Part shown: one piece after another, positions 3,299 through 26,130 of the stretch
Layout of the letters: the number at the start of each line of letters is the position of its first letter
Numbering within the stretch: the first letter of the stretch is position 1
The notes under the pieces: generated by a model
Databases searched by the model: none
Told to the model about the DNA's origin: nothing
Seen by the model: only the letters and a program-made list of their open reading frames with translations
Translations under genes and position numbers: made by a program
Assembly (NCBI GenBank): GCA_944372455.1
Contig: CALVZF010000013.1
Span: 1 to 33,147 of the forward strand
Source: an uncultured Bacilli bacterium
GTDB taxonomy: Bacteria; Bacillota_I; Bacilli_A; RF39; UBA660
Direction: 5' to 3'
Length of the DNA stretch: 33,147 nucleotides

Positions 3299-3352
3299 TT
3301 TTCTAGAATAGTATAACAGTCGTCAGTATGTTATTTGAAAGAGTGTGTGCTT

Positions 3353-5455
3353 ATGAAAAAGATTAAAAATTTATTTTTCAGTAAAAATGAAAACGGAGAT
3401 AGTGAATTAAATAAACAAGTAATTATTACATTTGTTTCGGTACTTGCAACTGTAATGTGTACGATTGGAGTTTCCTTAGCTGCTTTTGTATGGAGTGATA
3501 ATTCAGAAAAGGAACAAAATTTAATAGTTGGGAATTTGGAACTTACTATTTCATCTGATTCTAATTCGTTAGGTAGCGAATTAGATTTCCCTGTAGCTGA
3601 TAGTGATGCTGCTAACTTAACACCTTACACCTTTACTATTAAGAATACAGGAAATTTAGCTTCAAATTATTCTTTAAAAATTGTAGATGATGAAGCAGCA
3701 ATGGCTTCAGATGGATGTTTAACAAATAAAATAGATAGTAATTATATAAAATTTAGTGTTAGTGGAGCTTATAATACTAATCCTGAGAAACTTTCTTCTT
3801 ATGATGGAAAGGCTTTTACTAGTGGAGTTTTATTACCTAATGAAAGTAAAACTTACAATATAAAAATGTGGATCTCTTCAGATGCACCAAATAGTGTTAT
3901 TGGTAAACATTACCATGGCAAAATCTTACTAGAGTCTTCACAAATAGACGAGGTAGATCCTTTTAAAGATAAAAGTGGAGCTAATGCACCAGTATTAGCA
4001 GAAGGAATGATTCCAGTAAGATATGATGAAATAAATGATACTTGGGTAAAAACTGATGTTACAACATGGTATAACTACGGAAATCAAATGTGGGCTAATG
4101 CAGTTATGGTAAAAGAAAATGCAAGTACTTGTGAAGTATGGGATGGGGTATTAGGTGACGTTAATAAAGATGGAGATCTTACACAGGAAGATGTTGATAA
4201 TATATTAAGAAAGAATTTAGGAATAGATAATACAGGACTCACAGATCAAGAGTGGTTAGAACGTGGAGATATTAACAAAAGTGGAAGTATTGATGCTTCG
4301 GATGCTGGCGATTTGTCAGGTATTATTAATGAATTGATTCCTTACTGTGATACTCCAATAACTAGCAAATCTCGTCAAGAATATTTAGACGCTGAACCAG
4401 GAACGCCAATAGAAAAAAATGATATTTTGCAGTTTTTTGTTTGGATACCAAGATATAAATATAGAATTACTAGTAATGTAGGAAGTAGTAGTATGGTTAG
4501 TCAACCTCCAACTATTGATGTAGTATTTGAACAAGGCGTAGCTTCAACAGGAGTAAGTATAAATACAAGTGGAGTAGCTAAAACAGAATACTATACTCAT
4601 CCAGCATTTAGAGACGGAAGTAAAGTATATAAAACAACAGCTTACGATCAAGGAGGCTGGGATAAAGAGTTATCTGGATTTTGGGTTGATAAATTTGAAA
4701 ACTCTCTAGCATATAATACAGACCTATTTTCTGGAGGTTCAATTAAAGATATAATTGATTATTATAATGATAATATTATTTCATATGTTCCAAGTACTCA
4801 CATGATGAAAAACACTGAATGGGGAGCAATCGCATACTTAAGTCAAAGTAAATATGGAAAAATGGGGAATAATGATTTTACAGGAGTAAATAAAGAAGTA
4901 TTTATAAATTCAAGTGAAGATTTAATTTCAGGAAGAAGTGGAGGAGGAGTAGCAGGTGGAAATGTCTTTCTTACTCCAGACGCTATATCAACTTTAAATA
5001 AACAAACTTACTCTTACGATGGATATTCTTGCAGTTCTACATTCATAAAAAAATGTAAAGGTGAAAAAACAACTTTAAGAGGAACCGGAGCAAGTACTAC
5101 AGGTAATATATATGGAATATATGACATGGTAGGAGGAATGTCAGAATATGTAATGGCAAACTATAATAATTCTCTAGGTTCATCAGGACTTACAAATGCA
5201 GACTTCTTTACGACAGCAGCAAACAAAAAGTTATATGATAGTTACACTCCAAGTAAAACTTATATCTTAGGAGATGCAACTTATGAAACAAGTCATTGGT
5301 ATAGCGATACCGCTAGAGTACTTGATACAGATAATCCATTCTATCATAGAGGAGGATTATATAGCGATAAAGCATCTGCAGGTCTATTTAACTTTGCTAA
5401 GAGTACTGGTGAAGCAAATGATAATATAAATATAAGATATATAACTATTCCTTAA
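3353..5455 (+). CDS. Modular surface protein: TasA/camelysin-like N-domain, dockerin-like repeats, FGE/C-type-lectin-like C-domain
   Basis: 700 residues from ATG 3353, which has GAAAGAG about 10 bases upstream; an in-frame TTG at 3335 would add six residues but has no ribosome site. A long signal/anchor (residues about 20-45, VSVLATVMCTIGVSLAAFVW) is followed by a TasA/camelysin-like beta domain (LIVGNLELTISS, FTIKNTGNLASNYSLKI), the type of protein usually matured by SipW-like peptidase; no SipW gene is in the window. Residues about 262-325 contain two Ca-binding loops of dockerin type I kind (GDVNKDGDLTQEDV and GDINKSGSIDASDA). The C-terminal 350 residues resemble the FGE-sulfatase fold (TEWGAIAYLSQS, YGIYDMVGGMSEYV, RGGLY, RYI). 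It probably acts outside the cell as a binding or matrix protein. It has its own promoter and terminator and is a paralogue of the gene at 1-1500. Confidence 0.8.
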   Translation: MKKIKNLFFSKNENGDSELNKQVIITFVSVLATVMCTIGVSLAAFVWSDNSEKEQNLIVGNLELTISSDSNSLGSELDFPVADSDAANLTPYTFTIKNTGNLASNYSLKIVDDEAAMASDGCLTNKIDSNYIKFSVSGAYNTNPEKLSSYDGKAFTSGVLLPNESKTYNIKMWISSDAPNSVIGKHYHGKILLESSQIDEVDPFKDKSGANAPVLAEGMIPVRYDEINDTWVKTDVTTWYNYGNQMWANAVMVKENASTCEVWDGVLGDVNKDGDLTQEDVDNILRKNLGIDNTGLTDQEWLERGDINKSGSIDASDAGDLSGIINELIPYCDTPITSKSRQEYLDAEPGTPIEKNDILQFFVWIPRYKYRITSNVGSSSMVSQPPTIDVVFEQGVASTGVSINTSGVAKTEYYTHPAFRDGSKVYKTTAYDQGGWDKELSGFWVDKFENSLAYNTDLFSGGSIKDIIDYYNDNIISYVPSTHMMKNTEWGAIAYLSQSKYGKMGNNDFTGVNKEVFINSSEDLISGRSGGGVAGGNVFLTPDAISTLNKQTYSYDGYSCSSTFIKKCKGEKTTLRGTGASTTGNIYGIYDMVGGMSEYVMANYNNSLGSSGLTNADFFTTAANKKLYDSYTPSKTYILGDATYETSHWYSDTARVLDTDNPFYHRGGLYSDKASAGLFNFAKSTGEANDNINIRYITIP
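4544..4632 (+). repeat. 89-bp block shared with the paralogous gene (copy 2)
   Basis: Counterpart of 613-701 with four mismatches by eye. The similarity drops on both sides, which suggests either strong constraint on this segment or local gene conversion between the paralogues. Confidence 0.85.
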
Positions 5456-10871: not shown

Positions 10872-10888
10872 GTGATTTGTATGTAATA

Positions 10889-11150
10889 ATGCCTTGTTTT
10901 CTAATAATATTTATTTTACAGTTGATACCTCTTATATTTTTAATAAAAAAAAGAAATCTAAATTTTAGATAATATTATTTATTATCATATCAATATTTTT
11001 ATTAAATTATTATAAGAATTTACCAGGTTATGGATTTATACCTGGACTTATATATATATAGGGTTGTTTTTAATTTGTAAAGCTGCTATAATACTTTATA
11101 CAACAATGTTAATAATTTCTTTTATTATTTATTGTTCCAAAAAGAGCTAA
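10889..11150 (+). pseudogene. Remains of a small membrane-protein gene
   Basis: Three hydrophobic stretches in shifted frames follow one another: an ATG at 10889 opens 27 residues (MPCFLIIFILQLIPLIFLIK onward) to a TAA at 10970; a second frame from 10969 reads through FIIISIFLLNYYKNLPGYGF to a TAG near 11058; a third reads LFLICKAAIILYTTMLIISF to a TAA at 11148. Joined, they would make a plausible protein of about 85 residues with three membrane helices. Two frameshifts or stops would be needed, so I read this as a decayed gene. AT-rich DNA easily yields hydrophobic frames, so chance is a real alternative. Confidence 0.35.
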
Positions 11151-11167
11151 AGAAATTAAAAGCTCAC

Positions 11168-11196
11168 TTGTAAAATGTTATTTTTTATGTTAATAT
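11168..11196 (+). promoter_or_regulatory. Candidate promoter for the plus-strand small RNA
   Basis: TTGTAA (11168-11173), 17 bases, TAATAT (11191-11196). Expected start of RNA is near 11203. Confidence 0.5.
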
Positions 11197-11202
11197 GAAT
11201 AT

Positions 11203-11321
11203 GTCAAGGAAACTTGAATAAAATAAAAAAGGATACATTTGATTGCGGAATCAAATGCATTCCCTTGTTTGGGCTTGCATCTGAAATCAACTGGTGTTGA
11301 AATCAGATGCTTTTATTATTT
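11203..11321 (+). ncRNA. Candidate structured small RNA (possible antitoxin RNA)
   Basis: No ORF, but four stems in a row: TCAAG-GAAA-CTTGA with a GNRA loop (11204-11217); a 9-bp core stem with loop GCGG (11236-11257, extendable to 11233-11260); a small CCC/GGG stem (11262-11273); and a long hairpin (11277-11310: 8 bp, a 2x2 internal loop, 5 bp, loop TGGT) followed by TTTTATTATTT as a terminator. Two pieces, TCAAATGCAT (11251-11260) and GCATCTGA (11277-11284), are nearly identical to plus-strand sequence at 11440-11449 and 11427-11434, so this RNA can pair with the 5' leader of the opposite transcript as well as with its 3' end. Confidence 0.5.
11218..11263 (-). terminator. Terminator of the minus-strand mini-ORF transcript
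   Basis: Read on the minus strand, a stem with a 9-bp core (11257-11249 with 11244-11236) and a closing GGA/TCC, loop CCGC, is followed by the run TTTTTTATTTTATT (11230 down to about 11217). This is a stronger intrinsic terminator than the same hairpin read on the plus strand. Confidence 0.6.
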
Positions 11322-11337
11322 AAATAGTAGGTGATTA

Positions 11338-11391
11338 CTATAAAAATAATAGTAGAATTATAATAAATTGAGATTTCTCTCTATTTGTCAT
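11338..11391 (-). CDS. Candidate 17-residue hydrophobic peptide (possible type I toxin)
   Basis: ATG at 11391 (minus) opens MTNREKSQFIIILLLFL and a TAG. A purine-rich ribosome site AAAGGTGG (11407-11400) lies eight bases upstream, and a consensus promoter lies at 11486-11458. The polar head and hydrophobic tail resemble in size and character the Ibs-type toxins (18-19 residues) of type I toxin-antitoxin loci. The ribosome site is partly paired in a leader hairpin and the transcript ends in a stem-loop that is transcribed from the other strand as a structured RNA. No similarity search was possible, so toxin function is inference from layout. Confidence 0.45.
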   Translation of the reverse strand: MTNREKSQFIIILLLFL

Positions 11392-11402
11392 AATAACCAC
11401 CA

Positions 11403-11423
11403 CCTTTCCTTTTTGAAGAAAGG
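11403..11423 (-). promoter_or_regulatory. Leader stem covering the mini-ORF ribosome site
   Basis: On the minus-strand RNA, CCUUUC (11423-11418) pairs with GAAAGG (11408-11403) around a 9-nt loop; the 3' arm contains the first half of the Shine-Dalgarno. Confidence 0.5.
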
Positions 11424-11457
11424 GAAGCATCTGATATTTTCAAATGTATCTAGACTT

Positions 11458-11486
11458 ATTATAACAAACAAATTTTATCATCACAA
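11458..11486 (-). promoter_or_regulatory. Promoter of the minus-strand mini-ORF transcript
   Basis: On the minus strand TTGTGA (11486-11481), 17 bases, TATAAT (11463-11458). The RNA would start near 11451, right at the inverted-repeat block 11450-11427. It lies just downstream of the DUF192 gene, which reads the same way. Confidence 0.65.
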
Positions 11487-19852: not shown

Positions 19853-20143
19853 ATGGTAATTGAATTTAACAATGTAGAAGAAGCTATTTCTGATGGTAGA
19901 AGTTTACAAAGTGTTTCTCAAAAATTATTAGAGTTAAACGATAGACTTACCAACATAGTAAATAAAATAGATGCTTCATGGGCGTCAAATACTGAAGATA
20001 AAACTACTTATATTGAAGCTTTAAGAAAAGTAATTCAAGGGTTAGGGTATGCTAACGGTACTGGGTTAGTACCTACATTAAATGCTACAGGAAGAACCTG
20101 CGAATTATATGCAACAAATATTAGAAATCAAGGTAATAACTAA
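19853..20143 (+). CDS. WXG100-family protein (EsxA-like)
   Basis: 96 residues, the size of ESAT-6/EsxA proteins, with two helical halves around a turn at Trp43 (DASWASNTEDKTTY). The third residue is Ser, where WXG100 proteins usually have Gly. No signal peptide. Such proteins are exported as helical-hairpin dimers by type VII systems and often bind the EssC ATPase. First gene of the cluster, with a perfect ribosome site AAAGGAGGG. The membership rests on size, Trp motif and the EssC gene downstream. Confidence 0.75.
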   Translation: MVIEFNNVEEAISDGRSLQSVSQKLLELNDRLTNIVNKIDASWASNTEDKTTYIEALRKVIQGLGYANGTGLVPTLNATGRTCELYATNIRNQGNN

Positions 20144-20160
20144 AATAAAGGAGTGTAATA

Positions 20161-20544
20161 ATGGGAAATTATTTTAATATAGGATCTGAAATATATGAGT
20201 TACAAAGACAGTTAACTTCTCTAATAGAGGATTTTCAAAGAGAATTTAACAATGCTAATAATCTTTTAAATTCTTTAAAAAATAATTGTAGAGAAACAAA
20301 TTTTTGTTCAAAATTAGAAAAATTATCATCACAAGTTACAACAGCTTCTCAAAAATCTGTTTCTAATCTTAGTAGTTTAAAAACGTTTGCTGATCATCAA
20401 ATTGCAGCGTATGGTGATAGTTTAAATCAATTCGCACTTTCTCTTGAAAAAGCAATTCAAGCTTATGAAGAAGAAAAAATGAAAATTGATCAATTACAAA
20501 ATGAAATAATGCTTGGAACAAAGATGTATCAAATGTATGAGTAA
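20161..20544 (+). CDS. Small helical protein of the ESX cluster
   Basis: 127 residues, all-helical with heptad character (SEIYELQRQLTSLIEDFQRE, and LNQFALSLEKAIQAYEEEK), no signal peptide and no WXG. It contains two Cys (residues 43 and 49, NCRETNFC). It could be a chaperone or partner of the neighbouring WXG100 proteins, like the small helical proteins found near LXG toxins. Seventeen bases after the first WXG100 gene and 12 before the next; function unknown. Confidence 0.65.
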   Translation: MGNYFNIGSEIYELQRQLTSLIEDFQREFNNANNLLNSLKNNCRETNFCSKLEKLSSQVTTASQKSVSNLSSLKTFADHQIAAYGDSLNQFALSLEKAIQAYEEEKMKIDQLQNEIMLGTKMYQMYE

Positions 20545-20556
20545 GGAGGTTTAGAT

Positions 20557-20850
20557 ATGGGTGTTATAAGTTTAGAAATTAGAAACAATAACGAATTAAA
20601 TGAAAGTGCAAATAAAATGGTTGGAGAGTTTTCTAACTTAATTACTAATTGTGAATCAATTTATTATGTAATAAATAGTATAGAAGAAGCTTGGATAAGT
20701 GATTATCCAGATAAAAAAGAAGCAATAAAAGCAATGAAAGAATATGTAGAATGTATAAAAAGATATGTAGAAGTAAGTAAAAATTTTACTTCAGCGTTAA
20801 ATCATTATTCAATTACTAATGCAGAAATAGGTAGTAAAGCTGCAAGATAA
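20557..20850 (+). CDS. WXG100-family protein (second copy, divergent)
   Basis: 97 residues with a helical hairpin and Trp46 in EEAWISDYPDKKEAI, the same position and flanking acidic pattern as the first copy (Trp-x-Ser). The two differ widely elsewhere, so they may form a heterodimer. Ribosome site TAAGGAGG overlaps the preceding stop. Exported substrate or structural partner of the type VII system by inference. Confidence 0.7.
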   Translation: MGVISLEIRNNNELNESANKMVGEFSNLITNCESIYYVINSIEEAWISDYPDKKEAIKAMKEYVECIKRYVEVSKNFTSALNHYSITNAEIGSKAAR

Positions 20851-20867
20851 AAGAGGAGGTAAACAAA

Positions 20868-21206
20868 ATGGCATTAAAAATTAGTGAAAGTGAATTACTT
20901 AGAATGGGACAAAGATTATCTCAAATTAAAGGTGAAATTATACAAGAAATGAATAGTATACAAGAACAAGCAAATACAGTTAAAGATAATATTAAAAAAG
21001 GTAATGCTGATGGGAAAGATATAAGAAATATTATCTCAGAAATAGCGTTTAATATTGAAGGATATAAAGGGAATTTAGAAGAATTTTTAGAATTAATTAT
21101 TCAGTATTTAACTGAAAAGTCAAAAAATTATGGAGCACTACAAACGGATGCTAATGAACAATTAACTAAAGTAAATGAATTAATAGATGGAATTAGTTTC
21201 GAATAA
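20868..21206 (+). CDS. Small helical protein of the ESX cluster (WXG100-like without Trp)
   Basis: 112 residues, helical throughout, starting ALKISESELLRMGQRLSQIK, with a central turn near residues 43-47 (KGNADGKD). No Trp, no signal peptide. Length and layout are like WXG100 relatives but the motif is missing. Strong ribosome site GAGGAGG. Last of four small genes before a hairpin and essC. Confidence 0.65.
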   Translation: MALKISESELLRMGQRLSQIKGEIIQEMNSIQEQANTVKDNIKKGNADGKDIRNIISEIAFNIEGYKGNLEEFLELIIQYLTEKSKNYGALQTDANEQLTKVNELIDGISFE

Positions 21207-21252
21207 AACACTAAAATAAAAATTTAAAAGATAATTGTAATTAGAAATATTA

Positions 21253-21290
21253 ATTAAGCAATTCATATTTTGAATTGCTTAATCTCTTTA
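21253..21290 (+). terminator. Hairpin between the small ESX genes and essC
   Basis: Perfect 13-bp stem (21253-21265 with 21271-21283), 5-nt loop, weak tail CTCTTTA. No promoter is seen before essC, so this is probably a partial terminator or an mRNA end stabiliser that gives more small-protein than ATPase mRNA. Confidence 0.6.
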
Positions 21291-21311
21291 GAGTAAATAG
21301 GGGATGTAATT

Positions 21312-24300
21312 ATGAAGTTAGCGATTATAAAAAAGAATAAAATTAAAAATTATACTTTACCTAAAGAAAATACTAATAGCTATTGGATAACAGATTATGA
21401 CGAATTAAATGATAAAACCAATTTAATTGAATTAGTACAAAAAGATAATGCCTGGGAAATTATTAGTAATTCTGAAATTAAGGTAATTCTAAATAATACT
21501 TATGTTAGTAATATAAAATTAAAAGAATATGAATTCTTTTATTTAAAACCAACTATAACAGATACCTTAATAATCATTTATTGTTATCCAGATTTTGATA
21601 ATACTTTTAAACAATTTTCAATAAATAATAATACTACAATTACTATTGGTAATAGTAAAACAAATAATATCTATTATAATAGTCCTCATATTTTACCAAA
21701 TAATTCTTATTTGATATATTCAAATAACCAATGGACACTCAAATGTGGACAAGGAAAGTTTGTTTATGTAAATAATAAATTAGTTCAAAATAAAATTTTA
21801 CAAATTGGCGATATTATATTTATAATGGGATTAAAAATAATTATAGCAGGTAATTTTATTGTTGTTAATAATCCTAATAATTTAGTAACCTTTGATGTAA
21901 ATATACTATTACCTAAGAAATTTGTAAGAAAAAGTGTTGATATTTTAAATGAAGAAGCAGATTTTACTCTTTATAGTCCAACAGATTATTTTCATAAATC
22001 CCCAAGATTTATTTCAACAATTCAAGAGTCGGTTTTTAAAATTGATCCTCCCCCAGATCCAGTTAAAAAAGATGATAAACCTTTTATTTATACTCTTGGT
22101 CCAATGATGACTATGGGACTTACCTCAGTAATGTTTGCCTGGCAAGCAATAAATGGGGTAGTCAATGAAGGAAAAGACATTAGTACTGCCTTACCTTCAA
22201 TAGTTATGTCAATAGCTATGCTTTTATCCACTTTATTTTGGCCTACACTTTCAAAAATGTACGATAATAAAAATGTAAAAAGAAAAAATAAAAAAATTTT
22301 TAAAAAATATACTGATTATATAAATAAATTTGAAAAAGAAATTGAAACAGAAATTAGTAATCAAAAAATAACCTTAATACAAAATAATGCAGATTTAAAT
22401 GATTGTGTAAAAATTATTATGTCTAGAACCTCAAGGCTTTGGGAAAGAAGATTAAAAGATGATGATTTTTTAAATGTAAGAATAGGACTTGGAAATGTTG
22501 ATTCTAAAATTAAAATAGAAACTAAACAAGAAGGGTTTACAGTTGAAGAAAATAATTTAAAACCTTTACTAGATCAGCTTTTAAATAAATCAAAATTAAT
22601 GGAAAATGTACCAATATGTGTCTCCTTTACAGATAAGAATGTAGTCGGTATAGTAGGAAATAATAATCTAACTGTTAATTTTATAAATGGTCTTATTTTA
22701 AAATTAATAACTTTTCATAGTTATGAAAAATTAAAAATAATTCTCTTAACTAATGAAGATGATTCTAATAATTATAATTATTTAAAAATTTTACCACATA
22801 GTTTTAGTAATAATAGAGACATAAGATTTTTTGGAACTAATTCTGATGAAATTCAACAAATATCTAATTATTTAGATGATGTTTTAAACAAAAGAATTAG
22901 TAACTTTAACGAACAAGAAGAAAGTAGTTATAAAGAGGTTGAACCTTATTATTTTATAATAGTAGATTCTTTTAAAGAAGCTAAAAATATGAGAATAATA
23001 AAAAGAATTTTAGAGACTGATATAAATTATGGGTTTAGTATTGTTTTTAAGGCTGATAATTTATCTACTTTACCTAATGAATGTACTACTTTTATAAATT
23101 TGTTTGAAAAGGAATCAGGATTATTTGAAAATGAATTAATTGCTAATAAGCAAAAAATATTTTTTGCAGATTTTTTAGAAAATATTAATATGTTTAAGAT
23201 TGCTCAAATACTTGCAAATACTCCAATAGAAGATATAACAAATAATAAAAAAACTATTCCTGAATCAATAGGATTTCTTGAAATGTATAATGTAGGTAAG
23301 ATAGAGCAATTAAATATTCAAGAAAAATGGAAGACTAATAATCCATATTTAAGTTTACAAGCTCCTATTGGTATAGATGAAAATGGAGAAATATTTAAAT
23401 TAGATATACACGAAAAATATCATGGACCACATGGATTAATAGCTGGTATGACAGGTAGTGGTAAATCAGAATTTATAATCACATATCTTTTATCACTAGC
23501 AGTAGAATATCATCCTAATGATGTTTCATTTGTTTTAATTGATTATAAAGGGGGAGGACTTTCTGGCGCTTTTGAAAATAAAGAACGAAACATTAAATTA
23601 CCACATATTGCTGGTTCAATTACTAATTTAGATAAATCTGATTTAGATAGAGCTTTAACTTCCATTCAAAGTGAATTAAGAAGAAGACAGACAATTTTTA
23701 ATAAAACTCGCGATAAATTAAACGAAAGTACAATGGATATATATAAATATCAAAGTTTGTATAGGCAAGGGGTAATCACTGAGCCCATTCCACATTTATT
23801 GATTATTTCAGATGAGTTTGCAGAGCTTAAGAGTCAACAACCTGATTTTATGGATCAATTAATTAGTACTGCACGTATTGGTCGTAGTTTAGGAGTTCAT
23901 TTAATTTTGGCAACTCAAAAACCTGCTGGAGTAGTTAATGACCAAATTTGGAGTAACTCTAGATTTAGAGTTTGTTTAAAAGTTCAAGAAAAATCGGATA
24001 GTATAGATGTAATTAAACGTCCGGATGCAGCAGAATTAAAAAATGTAGGAAGATTTTATATTCAAGTAGGTTATAATGAATTATTTAAATTAGGACAGGC
24101 AGCCTGGTGTGGAATGCACTATATTCCCCAAGATATATATAAAAAGAAAGAGGATACATCCATTAATTTTATAGATAATGTAGGTAATGTAATTAAAACT
24201 ATTGATAACAAGAAAAAATCAGTAAATTCTAATTTAGGAGAAGAATTAGCTAATATTGTTAAATACTTAGATGAAATCGCTAAACAAAATAATATAGAAA

Positions 24301-25886
24301 CTAGAAAATTATGGTTAGATAAAATTCCAGCAAAAATATTTGTAGAAGACTTGAAGAAAAAATATTCCTTTAATAAAGAACCATTAAACATAAATCCAAT
24401 TATAGGAGAATATGATGATCCATATAATCAAAGACAAGGACTACTTACTTTACCGTTAACAAATAATGGTAATACCTTAATATATGGAGCTCCTGGAAGT
24501 GGTAAAGAGATGTTACTAAACACTATTATTTATTCTACAATCACAATGTATAGTGCAAAAGAAGTAAATATTTATATTTTAGATTTTGGAGGAGAAACTT
24601 TAAAAATATTTTCAAAAGCTCCACATATTGGTGATGTATTACTAGTAACAGATGAAGAAAAAATTAATAATTTATTTAAACAACTTTATAGTTTAATTGA
24701 AAATAGAAAAAAACTTTTTAGAGAATATAATGGAGAATATAAAACTTATTCTAAGAAAAGTGGAAATATTTTACCTACTATTTTAATAATTATTAATTCT
24801 TATGAAACTTTTATAGAATCTTATAGCCAATATGCAGAAGATATACAAAAAATATCGAGAGATTCTTATAAATACGGCATAATATTTATTTTAAGTACTA
24901 ACTCATCAAATTCTATTAGATATTCGTTACAACAAAACTTTAATCAAACTTTAGCTTTAAAAATTAGTGATTCTTCTGATTATACATATATTTTTGGAAA
25001 GCAAGTTAGAACTATTCTTTCAAAAGAAAAGGGAAGGGGACTAGTTAGTTTAGATAATATATATGAATTTCAAACTGCCAGTATAAATAATACCATAGAT
25101 GACGATAATACATTTATAGAAAAATTATGTAAGTCATTAACCGAATTAGGAAAATATTTTGCTACAAAGATTCCAGTACTTCCTAAAACAGTAACTTTTG
25201 AGTTATTAGAAAAAGAAATTAGTACGCTTGATAAACTTCCATTAGGATACTTAAAAGAAAACTTAGAAGCAGCTAAATATAACTTCAATAAAACTCTTAG
25301 TATTATTACAGGTGAAACAGTAGAATTTTCAAATATTATTTCAGGAATAATAAAAATACTAAACTACCTAATCAATTATCAATTAATAGTAATTGATGCT
25401 CTAAATCTTTTAGATTTTACAAAATTTCAAAAGGGTACATTTATAAATGATAATTTCAATCAAGTTTTTCAAAATATATATAATCATATAGAAAATAGTC
25501 AAAAGCCAGATAGAACTCAATATAAACCTATTATTTGTGTAATAATTGGAATGAATACTTTCATAAATAATATTTCTATGGAAAATAAAACCAGAATAGA
25601 TAAATTATTTGATAATTCTAATCAAAGTAAAAATATAAACTTTATAATAATTGATAGTATTTCAGAATTAAAAAAATTAACTTATGAGGGATGGTTTACT
25701 AAATATATAAACAATAAGGATTTTGTATGGATTGGTAGTGGTATAGCAAATCAATATACGTTTACTTTAAATAAAACAGTTAAAGAAAATTATGAACAAA
25801 TGCAAGATTCATTTGGATATGTTGTTAAAAATGGTAATGCTTTTTTAACTAAATTTATTAATGATGGAAGTGATAAAGATGAATAA
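21312..25886 (+). CDS. essC: Type VII secretion ATPase EssC (FtsK/SpoIIIE family)
   Basis: 1524 residues, the EssC size. Domains in order: an N-terminal region with FHA-like segments (about 1-190; FSINNNTTITIGNSKTNNIY), two membrane helices (about 255-320; LGPMMTMGLTSVMFAWQ and LPSIVMSIAMLLSTLFW), a degenerate ATPase-like segment, then ATPase D1 with Walker A GMTGSGKS (712-719, Lys718), VLIDYKGGGLSG and Walker B HLLIISDEFAEL. D2 has GAPGSGKE (1059-1066), with Glu instead of Ser/Thr and a weak Walker B (TILIIINSYETF). A third domain (about 1300-1524) has no recognisable Walker A. EssC drives substrate export through the membrane. It follows four small helical genes and precedes esaB. Confidence 0.93.
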   Translation: MKLAIIKKNKIKNYTLPKENTNSYWITDYDELNDKTNLIELVQKDNAWEIISNSEIKVILNNTYVSNIKLKEYEFFYLKPTITDTLIIIYCYPDFDNTFKQFSINNNTTITIGNSKTNNIYYNSPHILPNNSYLIYSNNQWTLKCGQGKFVYVNNKLVQNKILQIGDIIFIMGLKIIIAGNFIVVNNPNNLVTFDVNILLPKKFVRKSVDILNEEADFTLYSPTDYFHKSPRFISTIQESVFKIDPPPDPVKKDDKPFIYTLGPMMTMGLTSVMFAWQAINGVVNEGKDISTALPSIVMSIAMLLSTLFWPTLSKMYDNKNVKRKNKKIFKKYTDYINKFEKEIETEISNQKITLIQNNADLNDCVKIIMSRTSRLWERRLKDDDFLNVRIGLGNVDSKIKIETKQEGFTVEENNLKPLLDQLLNKSKLMENVPICVSFTDKNVVGIVGNNNLTVNFINGLILKLITFHSYEKLKIILLTNEDDSNNYNYLKILPHSFSNNRDIRFFGTNSDEIQQISNYLDDVLNKRISNFNEQEESSYKEVEPYYFIIVDSFKEAKNMRIIKRILETDINYGFSIVFKADNLSTLPNECTTFINLFEKESGLFENELIANKQKIFFADFLENINMFKIAQILANTPIEDITNNKKTIPESIGFLEMYNVGKIEQLNIQEKWKTNNPYLSLQAPIGIDENGEIFKLDIHEKYHGPHGLIAGMTGSGKSEFIITYLLSLAVEYHPNDVSFVLIDYKGGGLSGAFENKERNIKLPHIAGSITNLDKSDLDRALTSIQSELRRRQTIFNKTRDKLNESTMDIYKYQSLYRQGVITEPIPHLLIISDEFAELKSQQPDFMDQLISTARIGRSLGVHLILATQKPAGVVNDQIWSNSRFRVCLKVQEKSDSIDVIKRPDAAELKNVGRFYIQVGYNELFKLGQAAWCGMHYIPQDIYKKKEDTSINFIDNVGNVIKTIDNKKKSVNSNLGEELANIVKYLDEIAKQNNIETRKLWLDKIPAKIFVEDLKKKYSFNKEPLNINPIIGEYDDPYNQRQGLLTLPLTNNGNTLIYGAPGSGKEMLLNTIIYSTITMYSAKEVNIYILDFGGETLKIFSKAPHIGDVLLVTDEEKINNLFKQLYSLIENRKKLFREYNGEYKTYSKKSGNILPTILIIINSYETFIESYSQYAEDIQKISRDSYKYGIIFILSTNSSNSIRYSLQQNFNQTLALKISDSSDYTYIFGKQVRTILSKEKGRGLVSLDNIYEFQTASINNTIDDDNTFIEKLCKSLTELGKYFATKIPVLPKTVTFELLEKEISTLDKLPLGYLKENLEAAKYNFNKTLSIITGETVEFSNIISGIIKILNYLINYQLIVIDALNLLDFTKFQKGTFINDNFNQVFQNIYNHIENSQKPDRTQYKPIICVIIGMNTFINNISMENKTRIDKLFDNSNQSKNINFIIIDSISELKKLTYEGWFTKYINNKDFVWIGSGIANQYTFTLNKTVKENYEQMQDSFGYVVKNGNAFLTKFINDGSDKDE

Positions 25887-26130
25887 AGTGTTAGTAGTTT
25901 TATATATTCCTATTATAGAAATGCGATATGATGTATATATTCCTATAAATAAAAAAATTGAACAAATAATAATTTTACTTGGTAATGCTCTTAATGAACT
26001 TACAGATGGAGGTTTTATTCTTCAAAATAATACAATTTTAATTAATAAGGAAACTGGAAATATATATGATAATAATCAATACGTTAAAAATGCAGAAATT
26101 AAAAATGGAACAGAGTTAGTATTAATTTAA
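25879..26130 (+). CDS. esaB: EsaB/YukD-like ubiquitin-fold protein
   Basis: 83 residues from ATG 25879 (MNKVLVVLYIPIIEMRYDVY); GGAAGTGA sits upstream inside essC, and the two genes overlap by eight bases. Beta-grasp pattern: strand, strand, helix (KIEQIIILLGNALNEL), strands, ending TELVLI, as in YukD/EsaB of Bacillus and Staphylococcus type VII loci. These small proteins are cytoplasmic accessory or regulatory parts. The longer frame from 25861 has no ribosome site. Confidence 0.8.
   Translation: MNKVLVVLYIPIIEMRYDVYIPINKKIEQIIILLGNALNELTDGGFILQNNTILINKETGNIYDNNQYVKNAEIKNGTELVLI

Follow-up and report, generated by a model that had tools for sequence, protein, structure and literature searches.

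A likely decayed copy of a multi-copy type I toxin-antitoxin-like family in small-genome gut Bacilli

The 33,147-nucleotide stretch of DNA analyzed here (the window) is contig C13 of a draft genome that comprises 49 contigs and 1.15 Mb. The gap between obgE and holA contains a predicted minus-strand toxin-type gene with a small hydrophobic ORF, facing a plus-strand gene for an antitoxin-type RNA (Table 1). The initial annotation, which proposed a type I toxin-antitoxin locus at this position, described two facing promoters, a mini-ORF with a Shine-Dalgarno (SD) sequence and a hairpin covering it, a toxin-RNA terminator near 11217, and a structured plus RNA that overlaps the toxin transcript and carries its own terminator; each of these elements is present. 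Promoter-like matches in the AT-rich window are not above chance, with 11 observed and 13.7 expected from shuffles, and an Rfam search of the locus region gave no match at the gathering threshold. A weak match to IsrM (20.7 bits, with a threshold of 376) was taken as chance. Because promoter matches are at chance level and Rfam holds nothing for the locus, the case rests on comparison with relatives; the facing promoters matter since they are conserved in more than 200 copies, not for the promoter match itself.

Table 1 Predicted elements of the toxin-antitoxin-like locus, in window coordinates.
Element	Position	Strand	Basis
Antitoxin-type RNA promoter, TTGTAA-17-TAATAT, TG before −10	11168–11196	+	Sequence reading
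Predicted antitoxin-type RNA, ~119 nt	11203–11321	+	Sequence and fold
Parts of this RNA: 5′ hairpin CAAG-GAAA-CTTG; hairpin 1 (11231–11264); hairpin 2/terminator (11277–11310 and T run)		+	
Toxin mRNA terminator: stem 11264–11231, U run 11230–11217	11217–11264	−	Both arms complementary to toxin leader
Plus-RNA terminator stem, inside toxin mRNA 3′ UTR	11277–11310	+	Sequence and fold
Truncated toxin-type ORF MTNREKSQFIIILLLFL, 17 aa, with SD-ATG	11338–11391	−	Sequence reading
Span of ancestral 25-aa ORF (MTKREISQFIIILLLFFIVITLLFK type), now frameshifted	11316–11391	−	Alignment with relatives
Hairpin covering the SD of the toxin ORF	11403–11423	−	Fold
Toxin mRNA leader, pairs with own terminator (11231–11266)	11420–11451	−	Fold and covariation
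Toxin promoter, TTGTGA-17-TATAAT	11458–11486	−	Sequence reading

Relatives carry many copies of the locus region, sometimes in tandem, with 75–86% identity over most of it. A profile of the segment comprising the antitoxin promoter, 5′ hairpin and toxin U run identified at least 212 unique copies among the loci retrieved. We also applied R1, a sequence-only model of the same segment, to the window's bacterial family: 287 of 386 genomes had a match, as did 118 of 150 genera. A genome gave up to at least 11 matches; since 11 candidates were scored, per-genome counts are lower bounds. The −35 and −10 columns of the plus promoter are near-invariant in 36 aligned copies and in the R1 matches. The 5′ hairpin of the plus RNA is kept across copies with paired changes (e.g., ATGAA...CTTC and GCAAG...CTTGC), and copies from all five subfamilies described below have equivalents of the SD-covering hairpin. 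In a class-wide sample, 38 of 395 genomes matched R1, 37 of them from the same family. The remaining genome, G552, belongs to another family and has a single intact C-type copy close to a contig end (L240; contig C32, 11711–11792), which represents either transfer or a binning error. Named records that carry copies are animal-gut MAGs labelled Bacilli, Tenericutes, Erysipelotrichaceae, Candidatus Ventrenecus and a few others; the group is probably GTDB order RF39. Viral contigs, phages and plasmids that were searched contained no copies, and on this ground we rejected a phage or plasmid origin.

The surroundings of the copies vary. No neighboring gene is shared among 130 copies, the commonest neighbor cluster being a C39-peptidase-type ABC transporter (identified by eye) at 11 loci. 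A B-type copy lies ~1.2 kb beyond obgE, among other genes, in a genome of the same genus (G001); the other genomes examined have no copy near obgE. Tandem arrays comprise two to three copies, some differing in subfamily (G022:C15 38339–39503, G027:C16 7010–7742, G034:C24 2916–3603). In many copies (e.g., L106, 7555–7585), an inverted repeat of the type AACGACTT-GTCAAA-AAGTCGTT with a T run after it extends over the antitoxin −35. This repeat, degenerate in the window copy, might terminate read-through transcripts of the toxin gene or of a neighbor. Between obgE and the locus, the non-coding sequence at 10880–11160 resembles a decayed gene for a small membrane protein. Elsewhere in the window, a ribosomal protein L21 leader (Rfam RF00559; 6966–7031) lies upstream of the L21 gene. 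At 19853–26130, four WXG100-sized small ORFs are followed by a 1524-aa ORF that is FtsK/EssC-like by eye, with an FHA domain at its N-terminus, and by a ubiquitin-sized small ORF; the arrangement resembles a type VII secretion locus, here in a bacterium with a reduced genome. Large, secreted-looking paralogous proteins are encoded at 37–1500 and 3335–5455 and also at the start of L073, with several copies in the genome. These share a C-terminal region of the ..GVYDMNGNANEYV.. type (formylglycine-enzyme-like by eye) and dockerin-like segments.

An SD sequence followed by a hydrophobic ORF was found in 127 of the 193 copies of adequate length. The intact peptides are single-span and nearly all 24–37 residues long, mostly 25–30, with two length outliers that are probably spurious. 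They fall into five subfamilies: A (MTKRE..FIIILLLFFIVITLLFK, 25 residues), to which the window copy belongs, B (M.KKDFLI.., 27 residues), C (MK.K.F.IKVL..I.IILLL.., 30 residues), D (M.K.E.YL..IIILLIIVILIILIKIVPT., 30 residues), and E (MKKKDLLISFL.., 29 residues). The intact minus-strand ORFs are evidently under purifying selection, with nonsynonymous/synonymous ratios of 0.25–0.40 against expectation within subfamilies. The family therefore has, in these 127 intact ORFs, the conserved hydrophobic membrane-spanning peptide of the type I class, while the ORF of the window copy is not intact. On the plus strand, the conserved promoter, the hairpins, and a terminator that overlaps the toxin 3′ UTR appear to represent the antisense RNA gene of that class. 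The peptides matched no known-toxin model in Pfam or NCBIfam, so the name “toxin” rests on architecture. PADLOC and PHROGs likewise gave no meaningful peptide match.

The toxin promoters of relatives often read TTGtnn-nAAGAACAAATGTTTGA-TATAAT. Counting as a LexA-type box any site that agrees with GAACN4GTTC at six or more of its eight defined positions, we found one in 46 of 125 toxin promoters, 43 of them at a single offset abutting the −10. Shuffled spacers give a box in 2.4%, though this shuffle test ignores the shared ancestry of the promoters. Boxes occur in every subfamily (A 17/34, B 11/34, C 9/30, D 4/15, E 2/8), and two thirds of the copies are without one. The genome of the window encodes both LexA and RecA; its recA has CGAACAAATGTTTG ~83 nt upstream of the start codon, and its lexA promoter contains CGAACAATTGTTTG. 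The box in the relatives' toxin promoters matches these two operators. In the window copy, the same position holds a degenerate TAAAATTTGTTT with 5 of 8 matches. As judged from these promoter comparisons, the case for a LexA operator is strong for the family, though not proven. Divergent from lexA (L073) lies a ~50-aa ORF (MLNNVLKQRKELFLFLLMFILFAYFAVIRVDH...) with the same promoter layout and a perfect LexA-type box, CGAACGTGTGTTCG, between −35 and −10; it is possibly a YneA-like SOS division inhibitor.

LexA-type boxes, together with a small gene beside lexA that has the same promoter layout, would also suit an alternative in which the peptides are regulatory rather than toxic, small membrane proteins controlled by antisense RNA and acting, for instance, as an SOS-induced checkpoint in the manner of YneA or DinQ. 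We consider this unlikely for the family. Type I toxin loci typically combine a high copy number, rapid divergence into subfamilies, frequent loss of the ORF, and elaborate RNA locks, and the family shows these features.

Alignment with 33 intact relatives revealed two single-base deletions in the window ORF, one in CTACTATTATT-TTTATAG and one in CAC-CTACTA, and these lead to a stop after residue 17. The 17-residue peptide of the initial annotation is present as an ORF, but by this alignment it is a relic of a 25-residue peptide and not the ancestral product. The four copies in the window's genome all lack an intact ORF beginning with ATG. The C1 copy has a C-type ORF with ATA where other copies carry ATG, and might start from a rare codon; the C15 and C19 copies are remnants. 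This genome thus seems to carry relics only. The frame and both inverted blocks, whose conservation in homologous loci had been proposed as a check, are kept in relatives, which speaks for the family and against an intact toxin gene in the window copy. It is improbable that the window copy remains functional as a type I locus and makes a shorter toxin. Its SD and start codon are intact, as are the two promoters, the two terminators, and the leader-terminator pairing, and 17 residues come close to the hydrophobic toxin of E. coli Ibs/Sib (18–19 aa), to which the peptide had been likened on grounds of size. The family does share a very short hydrophobic peptide with Ibs/Sib. However, no intact relative is as short as 17 residues, a length that results from the frameshift, and the size analogy fails on that account. 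The two deletions lie within the ORF, the LexA-type box is degenerate, and the remaining copies in the genome are broken too.

The initial annotation also had the plus RNA pairing with the toxin leader at two blocks. Block 1, GATACATTTGA at 11232–11242, has an inverted copy at 11450–11440. Since the genes are convergent and the blocks inverted, both RNAs carry the same sequence here, and the leader is complementary to the 3′ end of its own toxin RNA. The plus RNA is antisense to the toxin 3′ UTR and identical to the toxin leader at block 1, so pairing of the two RNAs at that block falls away. A contact through hairpin 2 survives, with a predicted plus RNA:leader duplex of −21.3 kcal/mol against −14.2 ± 3.0 for shuffled sequences. 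The duplex of the window leader with its own 3′ UTR is predicted at −33.6 kcal/mol, compared with −10.9 ± 2.8 when shuffled. Over 109 copies, the mean leader duplex is −34.6 kcal/mol with the copy's own 3′ UTR, −30.0 with that of a same-subfamily copy, −17.7 with that of another subfamily, and −13.5 for a shuffled leader. At ten positions of the leader-terminator pairing in 88 copies, 86.9% are paired in the copies' own combination. All 500 re-pairings within subfamilies fall below this value (mean 83%, maximum 85.5%), and re-pairing with random partners across all copies gives a mean of 60% and a maximum of 68.4%. A-T, T-A, C-G, and T-G pairs are found at the same positions, with several types at most of them. 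The end-to-end form, which encloses the SD hairpin, is the minimum free energy fold for the window copy as well as for six relatives from four or five subfamilies. Together, these data point to base pairing between the leader at the 5′ end of the toxin RNA and the terminator at its 3′ end, with covariation of the two across five subfamilies. Covariation of the inverted blocks, taken by itself, would fit inverted repeats at the DNA level too.

Such repeats could be the termini of a small, MITE-like mobile element with an incidental mini-ORF, a reading that suits dispersed, multiple and sometimes tandem copies, an ORF flanked by inverted blocks, and the absence of the locus from the obgE-holA gap in other genomes. 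We reject it as very improbable. Conservation runs ~70 bases past one block, through the antitoxin promoter and 5′ hairpin, and ~45 bases past the other, through the toxin promoter, so the blocks are not element ends. Purifying selection acts on the ORF, whose SD is fixed, and the subfamilies are alike in layout while unlike in block sequence. It is scarcely credible that the window copy is intact and its two deletions are assembly errors of a draft genome in 49 contigs, given that they are independent single-base events, that the operator is degenerate as well, and that the ORFs of other copies are also broken.

The architecture recalls several known type I systems. In TxpA/RatA and BsrG/SR4, the genes are convergent and an antisense RNA of ~100–120 nt covers the 3′ part of the toxin mRNA. 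The same arrangement, with an antisense RNA of ~100–120 nt, is described for Bacillus SR6/yonT (PMC5848175), and 3′ overlap of convergent genes is common to all three systems and the window family. Peptides of TxpA, BsrG, and YonT are longer (58 aa for YonT), and the window-family peptides, compared with those of TxpA/RatA and BsrG/SR4 by models only, have no Pfam or NCBIfam match. A further difference from these three systems is that the toxin leader of the window family duplicates antitoxin sequence and, in addition, pairs with the terminator. In aapA/IsoA and hok/Sok, the antitoxin pairs with the 5′ part of a truncated, translatable mRNA, whereas the plus RNA of the window family is antisense to the 3′ UTR rather than to the leader or ribosome-binding site. 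What the window family appears to share with them, from fold prediction and covariation, is 5′–3′ closure of the toxin mRNA. In Helicobacter aapA/IsoA, the full-length toxin mRNA is inert through pairing of its 5′ and 3′ ends, in addition to SD hairpins (PMC6733600), and no homology to the window-family peptides was seen.

Fst/RNA II has convergent promoters, a small hydrophobic peptide, and a stem over the SD (PMC7472228), all common to the window family. The closer analogy that the initial annotation drew with Fst/par does not hold. In Fst/par of pAD1, both RNAs cross direct repeats and share one bidirectional terminator (PMC7472228), while the repeats of the window family are inverted and the window locus has two separate terminator stems. 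The PXXXG motif of Fst is absent by eye from the window-family peptides, which have no Pfam match. The tisB/istR-1, dinQ/agrB, and symE/symR systems are enterobacterial, with peptides unrelated to those of the window family and, unlike it, with antisense RNAs that lack the convergent 3′ overlap and leader copy. They are SOS-inducible type I toxins of E. coli, and the SOS-induced type I systems named in a review are those of this species (PMC6563280). It is this inducibility to which we liken the LexA-type boxes.

From the architecture, ORF selection, leader-terminator covariation, promoter boxes, and decay of the window copy, all read from sequence, the window locus is most likely a decayed copy of a multi-copy type I toxin-antitoxin-like family of small-genome gut Bacilli. 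The type I architecture proposed by the initial annotation is strongly supported by comparison with relatives, although the window copy lacks an intact toxin gene. The family, previously unnamed, is present in roughly three of every four genomes of one bacterial family. The open-licence papers searched contained none combining RF39 with toxin-antitoxin, which is weak evidence of absence.

We infer a scheme for transcription, peptide toxicity, LexA binding, RNase III action, and the order of events as follows. In an intact copy, an mRNA of ~240 nt for a membrane-spanning peptide of 25–30 residues would arise from the minus promoter, which LexA would hold in check in about one third of copies. 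A local hairpin would mask the SD, and the leader would zip onto both arms of the mRNA's own terminator, such that the full-length toxin mRNA, folded end to end, would be poorly translated. The convergent plus promoter would give an RNA of ~119 nt complementary to the entire toxin 3′ UTR. As the 5′ hairpin of this RNA repeats the leader sequence, the antitoxin and the leader would be rivals for one 3′ target. Once bound, the antitoxin would dislodge the leader, and repression is therefore more likely to proceed via decay of the duplex, probably cut by RNase III, as in the 3′-overlapping Bacillus systems. After DNA damage, LexA would be lifted, toxin mRNA would outnumber antitoxin, and the peptide would enter the membrane. 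We give roughly even chances to the fuller proposal of a large, undescribed SOS-controlled type I family of uncultured gut Bacilli in which the leader is a cis copy of the antitoxin 5′ hairpin and competes for the terminator.

If the family works as inferred, it would be among the most widespread small-peptide loci of this gut lineage, occurring in three quarters of the sampled genomes with up to at least 11 copies in genomes of ~1.2 Mb. LexA control of type I toxins would then extend beyond E. coli. The five diverging subfamilies would serve as natural mutants for how 5′–3′ locking and antisense RNA share work, and the window copy illustrates how such loci decay.
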